IMG/VR virus record: IMGVR_UViG_3300013132_000031
Coordinates: 44,086 to 108,085 of that record
DNA length: 64,000 nt
Strand: one strand, 5' to 3'
DNA from: a virus
Shown in pieces: positions 23,374 through 44,763 of the stretch (its first letter is position 1; each line of letters opens with the position of its first letter). Under the pieces are notes generated by a model. That model had not been told where the DNA came from, ran no database searches, and was given only the letters and a program-made list of their open reading frames with translations. The translations under genes were made by a program, and so were the position numbers.

Positions 23374-24156
23374 TTAGGAAGTGACGTTATCAACAATAGC
23401 TAGATCCAGCAAGTTTTGTTGACCTGTTGATACACTGCCAGTGTTGGCAGAGCCTGTGGTTCCTGACTTGATCACTGTGCCTTCGTCAGTGAAGAAGTTG
23501 GTCACATATCGTTTGTCCGCAATCACTGAAGTGGCTGCATAGGTTGACCCGCCGGTCCAGTCCAACAAGAACTTGTTGGTCAGCTTGCTGACGGTGGTAG
23601 CGGTACTATCACCTGTGGTAAATGTGATGGCCATGAGTCCAGCAGCAGGTGTCACATCGTCATCCAGCACACACACGCCCACGCTGTTGGCTGTTCCTGA
23701 GCCTGCACCGCCCACTGAAGTGGCTGTGAATATGGTGCCCACACCAAAGTTGGCAGGTGCACCTGCGGCTGTCCAAGCCGTGGTACCCACAGATGTTATT
23801 TGATAGGCCTGACCTACCACAAATGAACCATCGTTAACACCAGTGACGTCACCTACCAAGTACTTGTGACTGCCTTTTTGGCGGATGATATAGCCCTGTG
23901 CCACACCAATGCCTGAACCATCAGGTGCAGCAATGTTGACTGTGACATCAACTCTGGGATTGGTTGCAGAAGGTGCATCAGTGGGTGCTGCACCGCCTAC
24001 CACACCCAGATATTCAGTGGTGTTGAGTGTGTTGGTAGTGTTGACTACTGGTGCTGTGAGTGACCCAAAGTTGGGAAAACCCAGATCCACGCTAACGCTG
24101 GCGCCACCGTTGCCTGATCCGGTTGAAGTTTTTTGTATTTTTAGAGGACGTCCCAT
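23374..24156 (-). CDS. Virion structural protein (260 aa)
   Basis: A 260-residue protein starting MGRPLKIQKT, an opening I associate with conserved virion proteins of marine T4-like phages. Residues about 118-150 contain VGQAYQITSVGTTAWTAAGA followed by GTIFTAT and GSGTA. This is a widespread small phage structural module of the form 'G-Y-x-I-x-x-x-G-T-T-x-(W/F) ... G-x-x-F-x-A'. The rest is Thr/Gly/Ala-rich and beta-prone. AAGGAG stands before the ATG, and a late octamer lies 87 bases upstream. The strong hairpin 16 bases after the stop suggests an independent and abundant transcript. It may be a tail or head decoration protein; the exact place in the virion is unknown. Confidence 0.55.
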   Translation of the reverse strand: MGRPLKIQKTSTGSGNGGASVSVDLGFPNFGSLTAPVVNTTNTLNTTEYLGVVGGAAPTDAPSATNPRVDVTVNIAAPDGSGIGVAQGYIIRQKGSHKYLVGDVTGVNDGSFVVGQAYQITSVGTTAWTAAGAPANFGVGTIFTATSVGGAGSGTANSVGVCVLDDDVTPAAGLMAITFTTGDSTATTVSKLTNKFLLDWTGGSTYAATSVIADKRYVTNFFTDEGTVIKSGTTGSANTGSVSTGQQNLLDLAIVDNVTS

Positions 24157-24243
24157 TTTGTTTCTCCTTAAAGAAGTCCGATCGGAGTTCTAGTCCGTAC
24201 GCGGTGGGTAGAACCGCATAAAACGCAGAATTGCGTTGACAAG

Positions 24244-34481: not shown

Positions 34482-37142
34482 TTAGTTCACAGCGGCTTGT
34501 GCTATTCGTTGGTTGCTGGACACCAGGATTTTTTGCATGCGAGTCATGTCTTGCATTTCGGCTAGAATTTGTTGATTGACATCATCTCGAGGTTGTGCAG
34601 CGGCCTGCAGACTGATTTTGAGATCGTTCAATGCTGCTCGTATTTCTGCCCCGACATTGTGACTCATGTTTTTGCTCATGGCCTCAATCTTGGCCGGATC
34701 AATGTCTGGCTGAGCCATTGAATCCAACAAGCCGCCAGCACTGATTGTGACTGGTACTGATCCATTTTTCAAGGGAATAATGGCTTCTGGACCTTTTTCA
34801 CCTATGCGAGCCAGTTGCTCTCTGAGAGCAATGCCACCGTCACCAAAACTGTTTATTGCAGTGTCAAAATCTATAGTTGCTTTGTTTTGATTGCCCGGAA
34901 GACCAGTTTGGCCGCCAGCATCTTTGGGAATGCCAGCCCATATTCCACTAAGGCGTTTTACAAAGGCTTTCTTGGCATCTGGTGTGGGATTGGCAGCATA
35001 TTCATCATAGCCAGCTTGTTTGATCAAAGAGTCAGCCAATTGATCTTGAAGATCCTTGTCGAACATTTGATCGCCTTGAATTTTTAGCTGCGCAATTTTT
35101 TCTTTCAAAGTACTCTGTACTATTTGATATGCGCCTACGGCAGTGCTTTCTCCTTTTTTCAGTCCTTTTTTTCTGCGTTGGTCTTGCAAGGCCAACACTT
35201 GATCCACTGTCATTTTGGTCAGTTGCACTGCTGCTTGTTTGCCTTCGCCTTGCTGTATGTCATAGGGATTTTCTGCCCCTGGCGTGATCTCAGCACTTTT
35301 GATCATGTTTCTGATGTTCTGCATCTGCTGAGCTTGATTGGTGGGCGGTGGTGCTGATTGAACTTGTGGTGCCGGTGCTGTATTTGATTGTCTACCTTTA
35401 CCGGTCAGTCTGTCCAATATTCCCACACTACCTGGTGCTCGATTATCAACCGGACGTGGCGGTTGTGCTTGTGTTGCTGAGTTAGTATCCGCAGTGTTTT
35501 GAGCATTGTTTTGTGCATTGGGAGGTTGCGTTTGTTCAAGGCTTCCCTTGCGTTGTCGGCTTGGTGCGGCTGTGTTCTGCTGTTGTCCAGTGTATTCTTC
35601 ACGAAACTTGTCCAGCTTGTTCTGAGATTTTCTTTGTAAATCAAGGGCTGCCTGACCCTGACCGTTGTATGTTTTTAGAATTTTAACTAAGTCATCTAAC
35701 TGCTTTGCTATTTCCTTGCTGGCCGCAGCCAGCACCCTAGCTGGTGCCTGCAACTGTGGTTGAACCGATTCTACTAGGCCTTGCATTTCCAGTCCCAGCC
35801 TACGATTGCCTTCGTTGATTTTAGCTTGGTCAGCAGTGTTCTTACTGGCTTCATTTAGTTGTTTGCCGTATTCTTCGTCGGCCTTTTTAAATCTGTCCAC
35901 TATACTGGTTTGCAGTTTGGCAGCCAGATCAGCTGACTCGCTCATGCTCACAAACTTTGTATTGAAGTTGCCTGTGAGTCCCAGCACTGTGCCAATTGAA
36001 TCTCCTGTTTGTTGTACTTGTTTCAAAACTGTTTGTGCAGCTTCGGCTGGTTGTATGCTGCCTTCCAATAGTTTTTGCAGTGTGGCAAATGCTTCAGGTG
36101 CTGAACGTTGTAGTTTTTGCGCAGCTTCGCTGGTGAGGTTGCCGGCAAACATGTCTCTAGCACCTTGTGCCACTTCAGGAGCCAGACCTTGTACCACGTC
36201 GTTGAACATGGTCATGTTTTTTACACCTTCGGTGTTGCCGGCCAGTTCTAGGCCACGCAGTTTGGCTCTGAATCGCTCTTCATTCATGGCTGCGGCTCTG
36301 GCAGCTTCTCGTGATTTGCGATCCTGCCCAGTGATCATGGTCAGCTTGTTTTGTTCTTCCAAGTATTTTCGAGCACTTTCGCCCAACTTTTCTGAGTCAC
36401 CAATTTCAGCTTTTGTGTTTCTACCCAGCTGTGTTTGCAGCTTGAGATAACTCATGGTTGCATCGTTTATGTCTTCCTGAGTCATACCTGCACGAAACAA
36501 CGCTTCGCGATTGAGGTTGACCTGTGCTGACGATGCTGCTAGAACTTTGGCTCCTTGCCGCACTGTGCCACCCAACGATGCTAGATCTGCACTGCTTTGT
36601 TTTATAAGGCTACCGTATTCGGGAAATTCATTCAACAGGATTCCCATTTTTTGCAGGTCACCAAACATGCCTTCTAGACCGTCACTGGCAGTGGCACCCG
36701 ATTTGCTGATGTCTTGAAACAGTTTGAACTGTCCGGCAGCCATTTCATTGGACAGTTTGGCTGCTTCAGCGGCTGCACCAAACACCTTTGTTGTAATGTA
36801 GGCTGCTGCTGCCACCAGAGATTTTACAACCACACCACCAGGAGTAAGCACCACCAAACCTGCTGCTGCCAAATTTACTGTCTGTTGAAATTGATCCAAT
36901 GCTGCATTGGCTGCTGTGGCCGAAGTGTTGCCCTGATACACTGCTCGAGCATAGGCTCCTGTGGCTGATGCCAGAGTATTCAGCCCTTGCGCTGCCAAAT
37001 CGGTTTTCATGCCAAAATCTCGTATGCCAGTTTGGGCGTTCAGCAGCGCCTGGCGAGTGCCAGGCAGCACTTGACCAAATTGTTTCATGTCTTGATTGAC
37101 TTGTGCCAGGGTCTGCGACAGCTCTTGTTCTTGTGGGGTCAT
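34482..37142 (-). CDS. Tape-measure-like tail protein with muramidase-like domain
   Basis: An 886-residue protein. Residues about 1-500 are mostly helical (Ala/Gln/Leu-rich) and include a hydrophobic stretch, TVNLAAAGLVVL with the following PGGVVVKSLVAAAAYI, near residues 90-125, as in tape measures. A Gln/Pro/Asn linker leads to a domain (about 615-755) with IRNMIKSAE and STAVGAYQIVQSTLKE, which resembles phage muramidase/transglycosylase folds; the Glu near residue 628 is the candidate catalytic acid. ARIGEKGPEAIIPLKNG near 780 is a classic C-terminal tape-measure motif. I start at ATG 37142: the longer TTG start would place the late promoter inside the gene. It probably sets tail length and opens peptidoglycan, a role T4 gives to gp29 and gp5 respectively. 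Confidence 0.65.
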   Translation of the reverse strand: MTPQEQELSQTLAQVNQDMKQFGQVLPGTRQALLNAQTGIRDFGMKTDLAAQGLNTLASATGAYARAVYQGNTSATAANAALDQFQQTVNLAAAGLVVLTPGGVVVKSLVAAAAYITTKVFGAAAEAAKLSNEMAAGQFKLFQDISKSGATASDGLEGMFGDLQKMGILLNEFPEYGSLIKQSSADLASLGGTVRQGAKVLAASSAQVNLNREALFRAGMTQEDINDATMSYLKLQTQLGRNTKAEIGDSEKLGESARKYLEEQNKLTMITGQDRKSREAARAAAMNEERFRAKLRGLELAGNTEGVKNMTMFNDVVQGLAPEVAQGARDMFAGNLTSEAAQKLQRSAPEAFATLQKLLEGSIQPAEAAQTVLKQVQQTGDSIGTVLGLTGNFNTKFVSMSESADLAAKLQTSIVDRFKKADEEYGKQLNEASKNTADQAKINEGNRRLGLEMQGLVESVQPQLQAPARVLAAASKEIAKQLDDLVKILKTYNGQGQAALDLQRKSQNKLDKFREEYTGQQQNTAAPSRQRKGSLEQTQPPNAQNNAQNTADTNSATQAQPPRPVDNRAPGSVGILDRLTGKGRQSNTAPAPQVQSAPPPTNQAQQMQNIRNMIKSAEITPGAENPYDIQQGEGKQAAVQLTKMTVDQVLALQDQRRKKGLKKGESTAVGAYQIVQSTLKEKIAQLKIQGDQMFDKDLQDQLADSLIKQAGYDEYAANPTPDAKKAFVKRLSGIWAGIPKDAGGQTGLPGNQNKATIDFDTAINSFGDGGIALREQLARIGEKGPEAIIPLKNGSVPVTISAGGLLDSMAQPDIDPAKIEAMSKNMSHNVGAEIRAALNDLKISLQAAAQPRDDVNQQILAEMQDMTRMQKILVSSNQRIAQAAVN

Positions 37143-40685: not shown

Positions 40686-41723
40686 ATGAATCAAAAAATA
40701 TGTGTTACTAGTTGGCGCAGCATGGGATGCACGTTTATTGACTGGAGTATTCATTTTTTATCTGGACAAACTAGATATTACAATGCCAGTGCAAATGATT
40801 TTATAGAGTTAAGCCAAAATCCAATCAACAACATAAACGCCCACGGGCACAATAAAAATCATCCACTGGGATATGCTGAAACAAAAAAATGTTTGGAAAT
40901 TTTTGACAATCTAACAGACCAGGCCATTTGTTCAATGTATGCTGCCTGGTTGCCGCTTGATAGTGGCGCCAATATTATCAACGTTGGTATTGAACAACTG
41001 CCTGAGTCCAATATGATGACACAAGTTCAACAAACCATTGCTGACGACTACAACAAGATCTTTGAACTATGTTATAAAACTAATACAAAGATAATATATG
41101 TTGCACCAGATGATAGAATGCACCTTTATCATCAATCCATTAGATCTCACAGTAGATTCATGACCAGGCCAGACCAACCAAATTCACCTAAAGAACTCAG
41201 TGATGAAATGCAGCAAGTGTTCTTTCAAAACAGTTTATCTCGTTGGCAAGATTTAAATTTAACCAACGTTTGGGACATCAGAGAACGCATGGCATTGGAT
41301 AGCAGGCCATTTGCTGCCCACAAAAGTGACACCAAAATCCTATATCCCCATCATTGGGTAAGTTGTTTGAGTTTGTGGACCCGAACAGAAGAATCTATAG
41401 CAAACATTTTAAAATATCTTGACTTAGAAATTGATGCCAAAAGATTAGAACAATGGTTGCCTATCTGCAGACAATGGCAAAAAATGCAAACAGACATACT
41501 TGAGTTTTGTTACAATCAGCCACACATTGTTGATGCTATTGTTAATAATTTGGATTTCAGTATTGACCTAACATTTGATCAAGAAGTTATAATTCAGCAT
41601 TGCTTGATTTATCAACATGGACTGAATCTAAAAACTTGGCAATTAAAAAAATTCCCATCAAACACACAGGAACTACACAAATTGTTAGAGCCTAACATAC
41701 ACCCAGTTCCGGTGATTTATTAA
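40686..41723 (+). CDS. Sulfotransferase-like protein (345 aa)
   Basis: A 345-residue protein starting at ATG 40686; a TTG frame extends 24 bases upstream, but no ribosome-binding site favours it. The opening ICVTSWRSMGCTFIDW is laid out like the PAPS-binding P-loop of sulfotransferases (RS-x-G-x-T), and a W-x-D-I-R-E-R block lies in the middle. The last 60 residues (LNLKTWQLKKFPSNTQELHKLL) align by eye with the C-terminus of the protein at 47263-48153, so the two are paralogues. The final Lys-Lys-Phe-Pro-Ser/Thr-Asn motif is a good family marker. The gene is A+T-rich like the amidinotransferase. The substrate is unknown, and true sulfotransferase activity is inference. Confidence 0.45.
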   Translation: MNQKICVTSWRSMGCTFIDWSIHFLSGQTRYYNASANDFIELSQNPINNINAHGHNKNHPLGYAETKKCLEIFDNLTDQAICSMYAAWLPLDSGANIINVGIEQLPESNMMTQVQQTIADDYNKIFELCYKTNTKIIYVAPDDRMHLYHQSIRSHSRFMTRPDQPNSPKELSDEMQQVFFQNSLSRWQDLNLTNVWDIRERMALDSRPFAAHKSDTKILYPHHWVSCLSLWTRTEESIANILKYLDLEIDAKRLEQWLPICRQWQKMQTDILEFCYNQPHIVDAIVNNLDFSIDLTFDQEVIIQHCLIYQHGLNLKTWQLKKFPSNTQELHKLLEPNIHPVPVIY

Positions 41724-41740
41724 AGATCTCTAAGAGATCT
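41724..41740. repeat. 8-base inverted repeat right after the sulfotransferase-like stop
   Basis: AGATCTCT and AGAGATCT flank a single A, directly after the TAA at 41721-41723. It may be a weak terminator, or it may mark the downstream border of the RNA-like element; there is no T-run on the plus strand. Confidence 0.4.
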
Positions 41741-41764
41741 GTTGATTTCGCTGTGCTCATCAAC

Positions 41765-42100
41765 GTATTGTTTTTTCTAGCGCGAAGCGACCAAGTATTC
41801 ATGTAGATTGTTTTAGTCAGACGGAACCGTTTTGCGCGGTTCCATCTGTGTCTTCATGTGAGTTGAATCAGCCAAGACATTGGAAGTAGGTAATTTTTTA
41901 TACACCGTATGCTAAAGGACTCTGTGCTTTTCCTTCCTACCACGATACGCTAGTGCGCTCTAAACCTCGTTCCTAGTGTTTAGATGTTTATAGCCGGTGT
42001 CTTCGTATGCTAACATTCATACTATATCAATGCGTTGGCCCTATTGTTCTAGCCTCAAACTCGCTTCCCCTTCAGGATAGTGGGATTTACCCACGGGAGT
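41765..42100 (-). ncRNA. Putative structured RNA, HEARO/omega-RNA-like
   Basis: The only gene-free stretch over 300 bases in the window (41724-42111). It has no convincing ORF and no tRNA, but on the minus strand it forms several stems: 42094-42090 with 42084-42080; 42022-42018 with 42009-42005; 41984-41978 with 41965-41959 (seven perfect pairs, 12-base loop); and 41848-41837 with 41829-41818 (12 pairs including one U-G). In the last stem the plus strand would have a C-A mismatch instead, which favours a minus-strand RNA. The purine-rich single-stranded words GAAGGGGAAGCGA, GTTTGAGGC, GGAACGAGG and AGGAAGGAAAAGC resemble, as I remember them, HEARO/IscB omega RNAs. It follows the GIY-YIG gene. 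No IscB is in the window. Confidence 0.45.
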
Positions 42101-42111
42101 GCATCAATATG

Positions 42112-42618
42112 TCACGTGTCCGGTTTATTCCCCGGTTTTTCCACAGCGGTATTGCAAACTGGCCCGCCAACCTTGGGTGTTAGTTGATTTGTAATTTTAT
42201 CTTTGATGTGTGAGCCATGCACACGTACTTGTATATGGCCGTTGTAATAATCTGTTGATTCCAATACTCGCCTTGCAAATTGTTCTCTTGCCTCAATGTA
42301 ACTGCATTCAGACTTGCTTTTGCAATAGTAAAGTATTTCTCTGGAGAAGTTTTTGGTGCCTAAAGTGATTACGTCTGCGGTTAATTCTGGGCTTGACCCG
42401 TAGTACTCACGCCAGTCTGAATCGACTTTGGTTCGTATCTTTTTCCGCTTTTTGATGCCGTTCTTTTGTTTTACTGTCTTGTACGTTGTTTTTGAAAATT
42501 TCGCTAATTTTTTGCCTATGTACCGGCGTCCAGTGAGATTATTTGTGATCTGATAAACAAATCCCACACATTCTTCGGGCAGTGTCTCAACTGGGGTGTC
42601 TTGATAAAGCCATGTCAT
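42112..42618 (-). CDS. GIY-YIG endonuclease, SegE-like
   Basis: A 168-residue GIY-YIG nuclease. The motif pair appears as FVYQITNNLTGRRYIGKK (residues about 19-36), followed by DWREYYGSS, DVITLGTKNFSREIL and CSYIEAREQF, which provide the conserved Arg and Glu of the fold. It resembles SegE-type endonucleases of T4-like phages, free-standing genes that spread by homing. A short Pro/Gly tail (GGPVCNTAVEKPGNK) follows the domain. It is last in the gp55-47-46 operon, 63 bases after gp46, and is immediately followed on the same strand by the structured RNA region. The position just past gp46 and the A+T-rich upstream gap suit a mobile gene. Confidence 0.75.
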   Translation of the reverse strand: MTWLYQDTPVETLPEECVGFVYQITNNLTGRRYIGKKLAKFSKTTYKTVKQKNGIKKRKKIRTKVDSDWREYYGSSPELTADVITLGTKNFSREILYYCKSKSECSYIEAREQFARRVLESTDYYNGHIQVRVHGSHIKDKITNQLTPKVGGPVCNTAVEKPGNKPDT

Positions 42619-42681: not shown

Positions 42682-44763
42682 TTATGCTAGATCAATATCT
42701 GTGCTGTAACTGGTAAATCCGTTTTCTTTTACTACCCGGAGTATGTTCTCCACACGCCCGGCTAATTCGTCTCTATGGCTCACAAGCCAAATGCTCTTGT
42801 GACGCTCACGAGTCATCTTCTTCAACAGCGCCAAACTGGCTTCTACACCTTGCGTGTCTAGTCCAGAGTCAATCATCTCATCAATAAACAAGATGTTGAT
42901 GGGGTGATACAAACTTTCCCATACATCACGGAATGCCCAACTCATGCTAAGGATCAATCGATTACGCTCACCACGACTCAAGTTGTCAAAGTCAAGTTCT
43001 CGACCCAGTTCCTCAATGCTCACACTCAAGTCGTTTTGAAACTTCACTGTGTGCGGCAATCCAATGCGATCCAAATAGTGTGTGAGTCGGGCATTCAAGT
43101 AACTTAGATTCTGATCAATAATTTTTTTACGAACAAAACTATCTTTGCTGGTCAACAGTTTGAGCAAGAACTCTTGATGGTCTTGCACTTTGGTCAGTTC
43201 GTTAATTTTATTGTAGTCAACCACTTGCAAGGCCTGTTGTTGCATGTCCTCAATCTGTTCGCTGTAGGGATCAGTTTCGGCATGCTTGCTGGTGATATGT
43301 TGTAGCAAGTTATTGACTTGTGTGGAGTGTTTGATGGCCTGTGCTTCTGTGTCGTAGTGTGTGACAGGAGGAGCACCCAATTCCACAGGCACATAACCTG
43401 CAAGTTGTTCAGCATAAGGATCTGCTTCTGCTGACTTGTCTGCAATCTTTTGCTGTAAATTTTCCACCTCACTGCTGTGGCGAATGGCTTCTGCTTCGGT
43501 CTTGTAGTATGTTGTGGACCGAGCGCCCAGTTCGCCCAATGCTCGAAGTGCATCAGTATTTTCCATCCATTGACCATTGGTGGCCAAGGCTTGTAGTGCA
43601 GACTCCTGCAGTGCTTTACGCTTGGTTTCCAGCACAGTTTCGTGGGCACCGTCATGAAACTCTTGACCACAAGCATAACACTTGTGTGCTTCTAGTTCAG
43701 CAATCTCTGCCCGGAGTTTATCTGAAGTCTTTTGTTCTCGTGCTTCATCTGACACACAACGAGCAATGAGTTTTTCAAGTTCAGCAATGTCCTTGGCCCG
43801 TTGATTGTATGCGGCCAAGTCTTGGTGTGCTTGTAGTTCTGCTGAGATATTAATGTGACTGAGTTTGGTGTAACTGTCTTGCAATGCAGCAACTTCTTTG
43901 GCCTGTGTTTGTTGCCAAGCGGTTTGATATGCCAGCAGTCGATCATGTGCATCTGCTTGTTTTTTACGTTCGTTCCACAAGGCAAGTTCTTTGTGAGCCA
44001 ACAACTCTACTTCAATGTTGACTCGTGTCAAGTCATCGTATTGCCCCACAAGATACGCCAAGTCGCTGTCGTATTTCTTTTGCCACAGCCCCTGTCTACG
44101 GCACAGGCTTTCAATTTGTTCTTCAATGCGCTTGTTGGCTTCTTGAACAGCCCGCACCCTAAACTCTTCTGAGGTAATAGCGTCCTTGGTGGCCTTGTTG
44201 AGTTCTTTGATACGATCAGCACGTTCACTCAATACTGTAATACCCAACAACTGCTCAATGATGGTTCGCTGTTCGTTGGCTTTCAAACTTAAGAATGGTT
44301 CGGTATATGTGTTCAGCGCCAAGATGTGCTTGAACATGTCATGACTCATGCCAAACACACGCTCAATGGCATCCTGTGTTTCACGGCTGTCACCCTGTGC
44401 ATCGTCTGTGGCAGTTTGTTCTTCACTGTCCACATAGAAACGTAGGACATTGGGTTTGCGTCCACGTTCAATCTTGTATGTTTTACCGTTGACGGCAAAG
44501 TCCAAGCTGACCAACATGCCCTTGCCATTGGTTTTGTTTACTAGATTGTCCTTGCGAATGTTGCTGAGTGCTTGTCCATACATGGCATAACTCAGGGCAT
44601 TGATGATTGTGGTCTTGCCTGTGCCATTGCGTGATCCGTCACCACCCAGGTCCAAATTCTCACCTAACACCAGCGTAAGGTCTTGACGATCAAAGTCAAT
44701 GCCTTGCGTGGCCGCACCCACACTCATGAAGTTCTTAACAGTGAGATTTTTAATTTGAATCAT
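42682..44763 (-). CDS. 46: Recombination nuclease subunit gp46 (Rad50/SbcC-like)
   Basis: A 693-residue SMC-type ATPase that with gp47 processes DNA ends for recombination-dependent replication and host DNA degradation. Walker A is SRNGTGKTT (residues 44-52). The zinc hook is CYAC at 362-365 between two long coiled coils. The ABC signature is in NLSRGERNRLILSMSWAF, and Walker B is NILFIDEMIDSGLD. It is longer than T4 gp46 (560) because of extended coiled coils, which contain internal duplications of the type 'LL-x-H-x-ELA-x-(W/Y)-N' and 'APPVTHYDTEAQAIKHS'. The ATG overlaps the stop of the upstream radical SAM gene (ATGA), unlike T4, where gp47 and gp46 are separated only by small genes. Confidence 0.93.
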   Translation of the reverse strand: MIQIKNLTVKNFMSVGAATQGIDFDRQDLTLVLGENLDLGGDGSRNGTGKTTIINALSYAMYGQALSNIRKDNLVNKTNGKGMLVSLDFAVNGKTYKIERGRKPNVLRFYVDSEEQTATDDAQGDSRETQDAIERVFGMSHDMFKHILALNTYTEPFLSLKANEQRTIIEQLLGITVLSERADRIKELNKATKDAITSEEFRVRAVQEANKRIEEQIESLCRRQGLWQKKYDSDLAYLVGQYDDLTRVNIEVELLAHKELALWNERKKQADAHDRLLAYQTAWQQTQAKEVAALQDSYTKLSHINISAELQAHQDLAAYNQRAKDIAELEKLIARCVSDEAREQKTSDKLRAEIAELEAHKCYACGQEFHDGAHETVLETKRKALQESALQALATNGQWMENTDALRALGELGARSTTYYKTEAEAIRHSSEVENLQQKIADKSAEADPYAEQLAGYVPVELGAPPVTHYDTEAQAIKHSTQVNNLLQHITSKHAETDPYSEQIEDMQQQALQVVDYNKINELTKVQDHQEFLLKLLTSKDSFVRKKIIDQNLSYLNARLTHYLDRIGLPHTVKFQNDLSVSIEELGRELDFDNLSRGERNRLILSMSWAFRDVWESLYHPINILFIDEMIDSGLDTQGVEASLALLKKMTRERHKSIWLVSHRDELAGRVENILRVVKENGFTSYSTDIDLA

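Follow-up and report, generated by a model that had tools for sequence, protein, structure and literature searches.

The structured RNA and its limits

The window, by which we mean the whole 64,000-nt stretch of viral DNA analyzed here, contains a gap at 41740-42111 that is bordered on one side by a plus-strand gene ending at 41723 and on the other by a minus-strand GIY-YIG ORF. An earlier note on this DNA had proposed that the minus strand of the gap holds a structured RNA resembling HEARO/omega RNA; its statement that the gap lacks a convincing ORF was confirmed when we checked the stretch for ORFs. The adjoining GIY-YIG gene that it pointed out is indeed there and is of the SegE type, and a gp46/SbcC-like gene precedes it (Table 1).

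Relatives were gathered from IMG/VR by searching for relatives of the GIY-YIG protein (best 80) and by exact-match pattern scans; many of the sampled contigs are fragments. The full-length nhmmer family, which we call type A, comprises at least 206 loci, partly overlapping, and comes from phages of fresh and salt water, judged from collection names and hits. In 55 distinct loci, the RNA begins sharply at CTAACAC (window 42183), and the preceding sequences are unlike one another. The core ends at ATCTACATGAA (window 41798), and hairpins and a palindromic terminator then reach 41723. A structured RNA does lie in the interval first assigned to it, 41740-42111, but its limits have to be moved: the relatives place the core at 42183-41798 and the hairpins as far as 41723, and because the conserved 5' boundary is at 42183 the earlier interval is short by the first 72 nt. 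About 72 conserved nt of the RNA overlap the 3' part of the ORF annotated as GIY-YIG. This ORF extends to 42112 because the SegE stop is mutated in the window phage, which has ATT ACA where the relative L022 has ATT TAA; the ORF continues for 26 codons into the RNA (42195-42112, minus strand).

The RNA has an overall length of about 390-460 nt. The terminal hairpin motif is found within 220 nt downstream at 160 of 195 type A loci and at 101 of 151 loci of a second RNA type, B, described below. When both strands of the window were scanned for the generic form of this motif in relatives, GAGC[GA]N(2-3)AGCGA, the sole occurrence was at 35949 (minus strand); the scan misses the terminal hairpin of the window RNA itself, GAGCACAGCGA at 41758-41748.

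The possibility, raised earlier, that the stretch is the remnant of a decayed gene does not hold. Across 96 aligned elements, the lengths fall evenly into the three reading frames, and the stop-free runs of the RNA strand do not exceed those of shuffled sequence; the element is thus neither a hidden gene nor a decayed one.

Table 1 Features of the RNA locus in window coordinates; paired segments of each helix are given in the order in which they occur on the RNA strand.
Feature	Coordinates	Strand	Basis and remarks
gp46/SbcC-like recombination nuclease subunit	42682..44763	minus	upstream, same strand; PHROG 77, E 1.7e-106; Pfam AAA_23
SegE-type GIY-YIG homing endonuclease, 142 aa	42193..42618	minus	Pfam PF19835 SegE_GIY-YIG, E 2.1e-32
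Type A RNA core, 386 nt	41798..42183	minus	CTAACACCCAAGG to ATCTACATGAA; sharp 5' boundary, nhmmer family, structure
Helix P1	42146..42167 (42167-42164 with 42149-42146)	minus	100% paired; compensatory change in 2/4 pairs
Helix P2, long-range closing	41881..42143 (42143-42139 UGGAA with 41885-41881 UUCCA)	minus	97.7% paired
Helix P3	42120..42135 (42135-42132 with 42123-42120)	minus	91% paired; compensatory change in 4/4 pairs
Helix P4	42024..42110 (42110-42101 with 42033-42024)	minus	99% paired; compensatory change in 5/9; one pair significant, tree-based null
Helix P5	42005..42022 (42022-42018 with 42009-42005)	minus	99.6% paired; compensatory change in 4/5 pairs
Helix P6, conserved loop ACUAGGAACGAG	41959..41984 (41984-41978 with 41965-41959)	minus	compensatory change in 4/6 pairs
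Pseudoknot	41924..41943 (41943-41941 with 41926-41924)	minus	G-U-G with C-A-C in window
Helix P7, encloses P8	41886..41940 (41940-41936 with 41890-41886)	minus	3'-domain alignment, structure
Helix P8, inside P7	41933-41931 with 41919-41917	minus	3'-domain alignment, structure
Helix P9, the 12-pair stem	41818..41848 (41848-41837 with 41829-41818)	minus	98.3% of cells paired, 9 pairs counted
RNA 3' end region	41723..41797	minus	variable hairpin, terminal hairpin, palindromic terminator
Variable hairpin GTCGCTTCGCGC	41791-41780	minus	RNA 3' end region
Terminal hairpin GTTGATGAGCACAGCGAAATCAAC	41764-41741	minus	RNA 3' end region
Palindromic terminator AGATCTCTTAGAGATCTT	41740-41723	minus	RNA 3' end region

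Fold and covariation of the type A RNA

The minus strand of the gap folds at -99.1 kcal/mol, with a z of -2.84 against shuffled sequence; the plus strand has a z of -0.97. In RNAalifold predictions from 96 diverse sequences, 26 of 71 pairs have compensatory changes. The covariation among relatives on which the first proposal had been made to depend is present, and nine helices and one pseudoknot are supported in the type A RNA (Table 1). Covariation is silent on the long-range closing helix P2, since compensatory changes are absent there. A covariation test with a home-made, tree-based null yielded four significant pairs; of these, three form standard pairs (Watson-Crick or G-U) in 85% or more of the sequences, two of them in the pseudoknot. 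All three pseudoknot pairs vary on both sides and are 99.5% paired in 74 sequences, with the variants GAC/GUC, GAU/AUC, GUG/CAC, AAU/AUU, and GCA/UGC in the family.

We also aligned 74 divergent 3' domains separately. In this alignment 99.0% of pair cells pair, compared to at most 48.5% in slid controls, and double-sided changes occur in 6 pairs and 45 cells, compared to 3.0 and 7.2 in shuffles. An independent alignment fold, uninformed of the helices, returns the same nested helices. These results bear out the claim of a minus-strand structured RNA under selection.

The 12-pair stem with its single U-G pair that had first drawn attention to the minus strand is present as helix P9. Its key pair, read on the RNA strand, is U-G in 42 and C-G in 32 of the 74 sequences and is unpaired in none. 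This alternation points to the minus strand as the RNA, and the strand asymmetry argued from one sequence thus holds across the family. The same counts bear on the reading of the element as DNA, that is, as a replication origin, a packaging site, or a recombination site. Its proximity to gp46 recombination genes and its presence in one copy per phage would suit such a site; however, the G-U pairs exist on one strand only, and an entropy profile of the core shows conservation of loops expected to be single-stranded. We consider a DNA element very improbable.

Genomic neighborhood and exchange of RNA types

SegE lies directly upstream of the RNA in 52 of 55 type A loci and in 73 of 80 wider loci, the latter by our own reading, which depends on estimated and sometimes shifted RNA starts; gp46 often precedes SegE in these loci. 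In some loci, a zinc-finger-like small ORF without a PHROG match sits between SegE and the RNA. The exceptions have varied neighbors. In L197 and L229, a RusA-like Holliday junction resolvase lies just upstream of the RNA in the usual place of SegE; structural or terminase-like genes are found upstream in L155, L163, L189, and L196, with SegE downstream of the RNA in L163 and L196; and L204 and L208 have other neighbor genes. A model of the 3' domain matches L163, L189, L196, L197, L204, L208, and L229 and has no match in four isolate regions examined.

In the contexts that we read, the RNA shares its strand with the gene upstream, so it might be a processed mRNA 3' end: a structured 3' UTR that acts in cis on the operon before it (gp46, SegE), regulating how stable that operon's message is or how it is translated, with no independent life. 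The terminator at the end of the RNA fits this explanation, and no promoter of its own was found in the window. Likewise, T4 late promoter motifs are not enriched ahead of the RNA, and we set aside an excess of sigma-70-like matches there, which was measured against mononucleotide shuffles in partly related sequences. Against a 3' UTR stands the variety of the upstream genes, which include SegE, the RusA-like resolvase, structural or terminase-like genes, and others, together with the size of the 386-nt pseudoknotted structure, which exceeds the usual needs of a UTR. We regard this explanation as unlikely.

SegE homologues occur in 471 isolate phage records, and the four isolate regions that we read hold no SegE-adjacent RNA of the family. 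Blastn of types A and B against the INPHARED isolate phages gave no match, so the RNA was found in none of these isolates. Some INPHARED records, for example NC_041997.1 and NC_028945.1, label SegE-type GIY-YIG proteins as NAD synthetase, as does PHROG 447. Among genome contigs, the exact 5' pattern has no match and the exact 3' pattern matches two contigs of one Neomarinimicrobiota MAG (L397 and L398; PBPT01000016.1 and PBPT01000082.1). Both have a SegE-like gene before the RNA and then a gene resembling the downstream genes of the phage loci; given these phage-like neighbors, we read them as phage contigs that were probably mis-binned with the MAG.

Where a SegE locus lacks type A, a different structured RNA is present, of type B or type C; it lies after the SegE stop or, if genes are inserted, a little beyond. 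Compensated pairs number 39 of 90 in type B and 43 of 93 in type C. All 74 evaluable SegE loci have either type A or type B/C and none has both, five contigs that end too soon being left out. A model built from type A 3' domains (R1) matches the B and C RNAs after SegE with E-values of 0.001 to 0.3, above chance matches in 396 kb; the matches to type C include L029 (E 0.012) and L095 (E 0.28). An alignment of the 3' domains of types A, B, and C has boxes in common. Judging from these comparisons, the 3' domain, consisting of P7/P8/pseudoknot, P9, and the conserved boxes ACUCAxAUGA and AUCUAxAUGA, is common to all types, with homology between A and B/C confined to the 3' domain and modest in its scores.

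The 5' part of type C is the Rfam motif Polynucleobacter-1 (RF01718), which scores 81-120 bits there, over the gathering score. At 141 nt, the Rfam model corresponds to no more than the 5' portion of the phage RNA that follows SegE, which is about 370 nt long. Loci carrying RF01718 include L297, L291, L321, L337, L095, L029, and others. Polynucleobacter-1 was a candidate in a 2010 survey, from Burkholderiales and from fresh water or estuary (PMC2864571). Its type C bearers occupy the same place after SegE as the window RNA and have the 3' domain in common with it; in contrast, the 5' domain of the window RNA is different, and RF01718 has no match in the window phage record.

Hybrids occur as well. 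A model of type B 5' parts (R2) matches directly upstream of type A 3' domains at about a dozen loci; in plain type A controls it has no match except in L229. These combinations of a B-type 5' part with an A-type 3' domain show that the RNA family is modular. The motifs CUAAC..UUAAGG and CUGUGRAAAAA occur in both the type A 5' domain and type B, a tentative sign of homology between the two.

Mapped onto a tree built from 241 SegE genes, the RNA type (A versus B/C) has phylogenetic signal, yet switches many times: there are 31 changes, compared to 80 with shuffled labels. SegE genes that are 97% identical adjoin different RNA types. When loci are compared in pairs, identity is high up to the end of SegE and absent in the RNA, and in most pairs it resumes from the terminal hairpin; the exchange breakpoints thus fall at the stop codon of SegE and at this hairpin. 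The RNA is passed between phages as a cassette; in that sense, and in no other, does the idea of a mobile RNA element survive.

Given the 31 type changes, SegE has no fixed tie to a single type of RNA. Part of the count might stem from exchange of the SegE gene itself, but in either case SegE and the type of RNA beside it are not handed down together. This weighs on the proposal that the RNA is the guide or cofactor of a GIY-YIG ribonucleoprotein with SegE as its protein. The position of SegE directly upstream of most type A RNAs agrees with a partnership, as does the RNA of this family downstream of all 74 evaluable close SegE relatives. However, SegE genes up to 97% identical are combined with any of types A, B, and C, in some phages no SegE precedes the RNA, the SegE homologues in the four isolate phages examined lack an adjacent RNA, and no hypervariable guide-like segment was recognized; binding would be possible only to the common 3' domain. 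We consider a specific partnership improbable.

We found exactly one copy of the RNA per record in 16 of 16 type A phage records. Cassette exchange, varied neighbors, and an adjoining homing endonuclease might suggest a selfish RNA, intron-like or transposon-end-like, that spreads itself. Such an element is hard to reconcile with one copy per record and with presence in all evaluable SegE loci; moreover, the types substitute for one another instead of appearing and vanishing, no intron family matches, and the RNA comes after genes, not within one. A selfish element therefore has little probability in our judgment.

Phage T4 offers a parallel: its SegB, a free-standing homing endonuclease of the GIY-YIG type, lies next to non-coding RNA genes, drives the inheritance of this neighboring tRNA region (PMC2988022), and is able to amplify anti-defence loci (PMC13096335). 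By analogy, SegE is a plausible homing driver of the RNA exchange; the window differs from the SegB region in that it has no tRNAs and in that we infer the driving role of SegE.

Known RNA classes and the proposed role

HEARO/omega RNA (RF02033) is likewise structured, conserved, and a few hundred nt long, and the likeness to it had been drawn from sequence words. The purine-rich words are present, mostly in less conserved parts, but the resemblance to HEARO was not reproduced. No Rfam family, HEARO included, matches at the element (E up to 1; with only the element searched, E up to 10), and the best RF02033 match in the 108-kb phage record reaches 12 bits at another location, compared to a gathering score of 83. 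In 17 phage records, possibly incomplete, the IscB RRXRR domain (PF14239) is below cut-off or absent and the TnpB zinc finger (PF07282) is absent, in agreement with the earlier statement that neither protein is encoded here; an IscB encoded by the host would escape this search. The entropy profile of the core has no recognizable guide-like block, and the sharp 5' boundary abuts gene ends conserved between relatives. With one copy per record and a mostly fixed place, the RNA is unlikely to be a standalone guide RNA. That it is an omega RNA serving in trans an IscB from another locus, for which sequence words are the sole argument, is scarcely credible.

Other known classes were also considered. 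GOLLD and ROOL are large, ornate phage RNAs of unknown function like this one; they are longer, however, with 659 to more than 800 nt against the 386-nt core, their Rfam covariance models are unmatched, and the window yielded no tRNA. Group I and group II introns were rejected because no Rfam intron matches at E up to 10 and the RNA follows genes, and a tmRNA or tRNA because ARAGORN predicts no such genes in the window or in eight relatives. In the window as a whole, a single Rfam match exceeds its gathering score: a freshwater-2 RNA (RF02980, 70.6 bits) at 24154-24238 on the minus strand.

We favor, at a probability of roughly 0.55, a stand-alone phage non-coding RNA gene that acts in trans, has one 3' domain common to all types and 5' domains that can be exchanged, and is kept as a single-copy cassette with SegE as a plausible driver of its exchange. 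The window RNA would be type A of this modular family, coming last in a string of genes with gp46 and SegE and closing with terminal hairpins of its own. It would be transcribed, processed, and function as RNA through its multi-helix, pseudoknotted fold. The common 3' domain probably docks on a shared partner or assembles the RNA, and the exchangeable 5' domains probably confer specificity. The swapping of this single-copy cassette would proceed through recombination within the conserved flanks, plausibly driven by SegE.

A further, rather doubtful reading of the same features is a conflict determinant, in which the swappable 5' domains act against host defences or rival phages and SegE moves the matching cassette between co-infecting phages. 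If true, it would amount to an RNA-based system for anti-defence or exclusion that phages can swap.

Polynucleobacter-1, an orphan Rfam motif, is here connected with a far larger RNA, which is placed in T4-like phages from both fresh and salt water. Since RNA types are swapped naturally in near-identical flanks, the role of each domain is directly testable.
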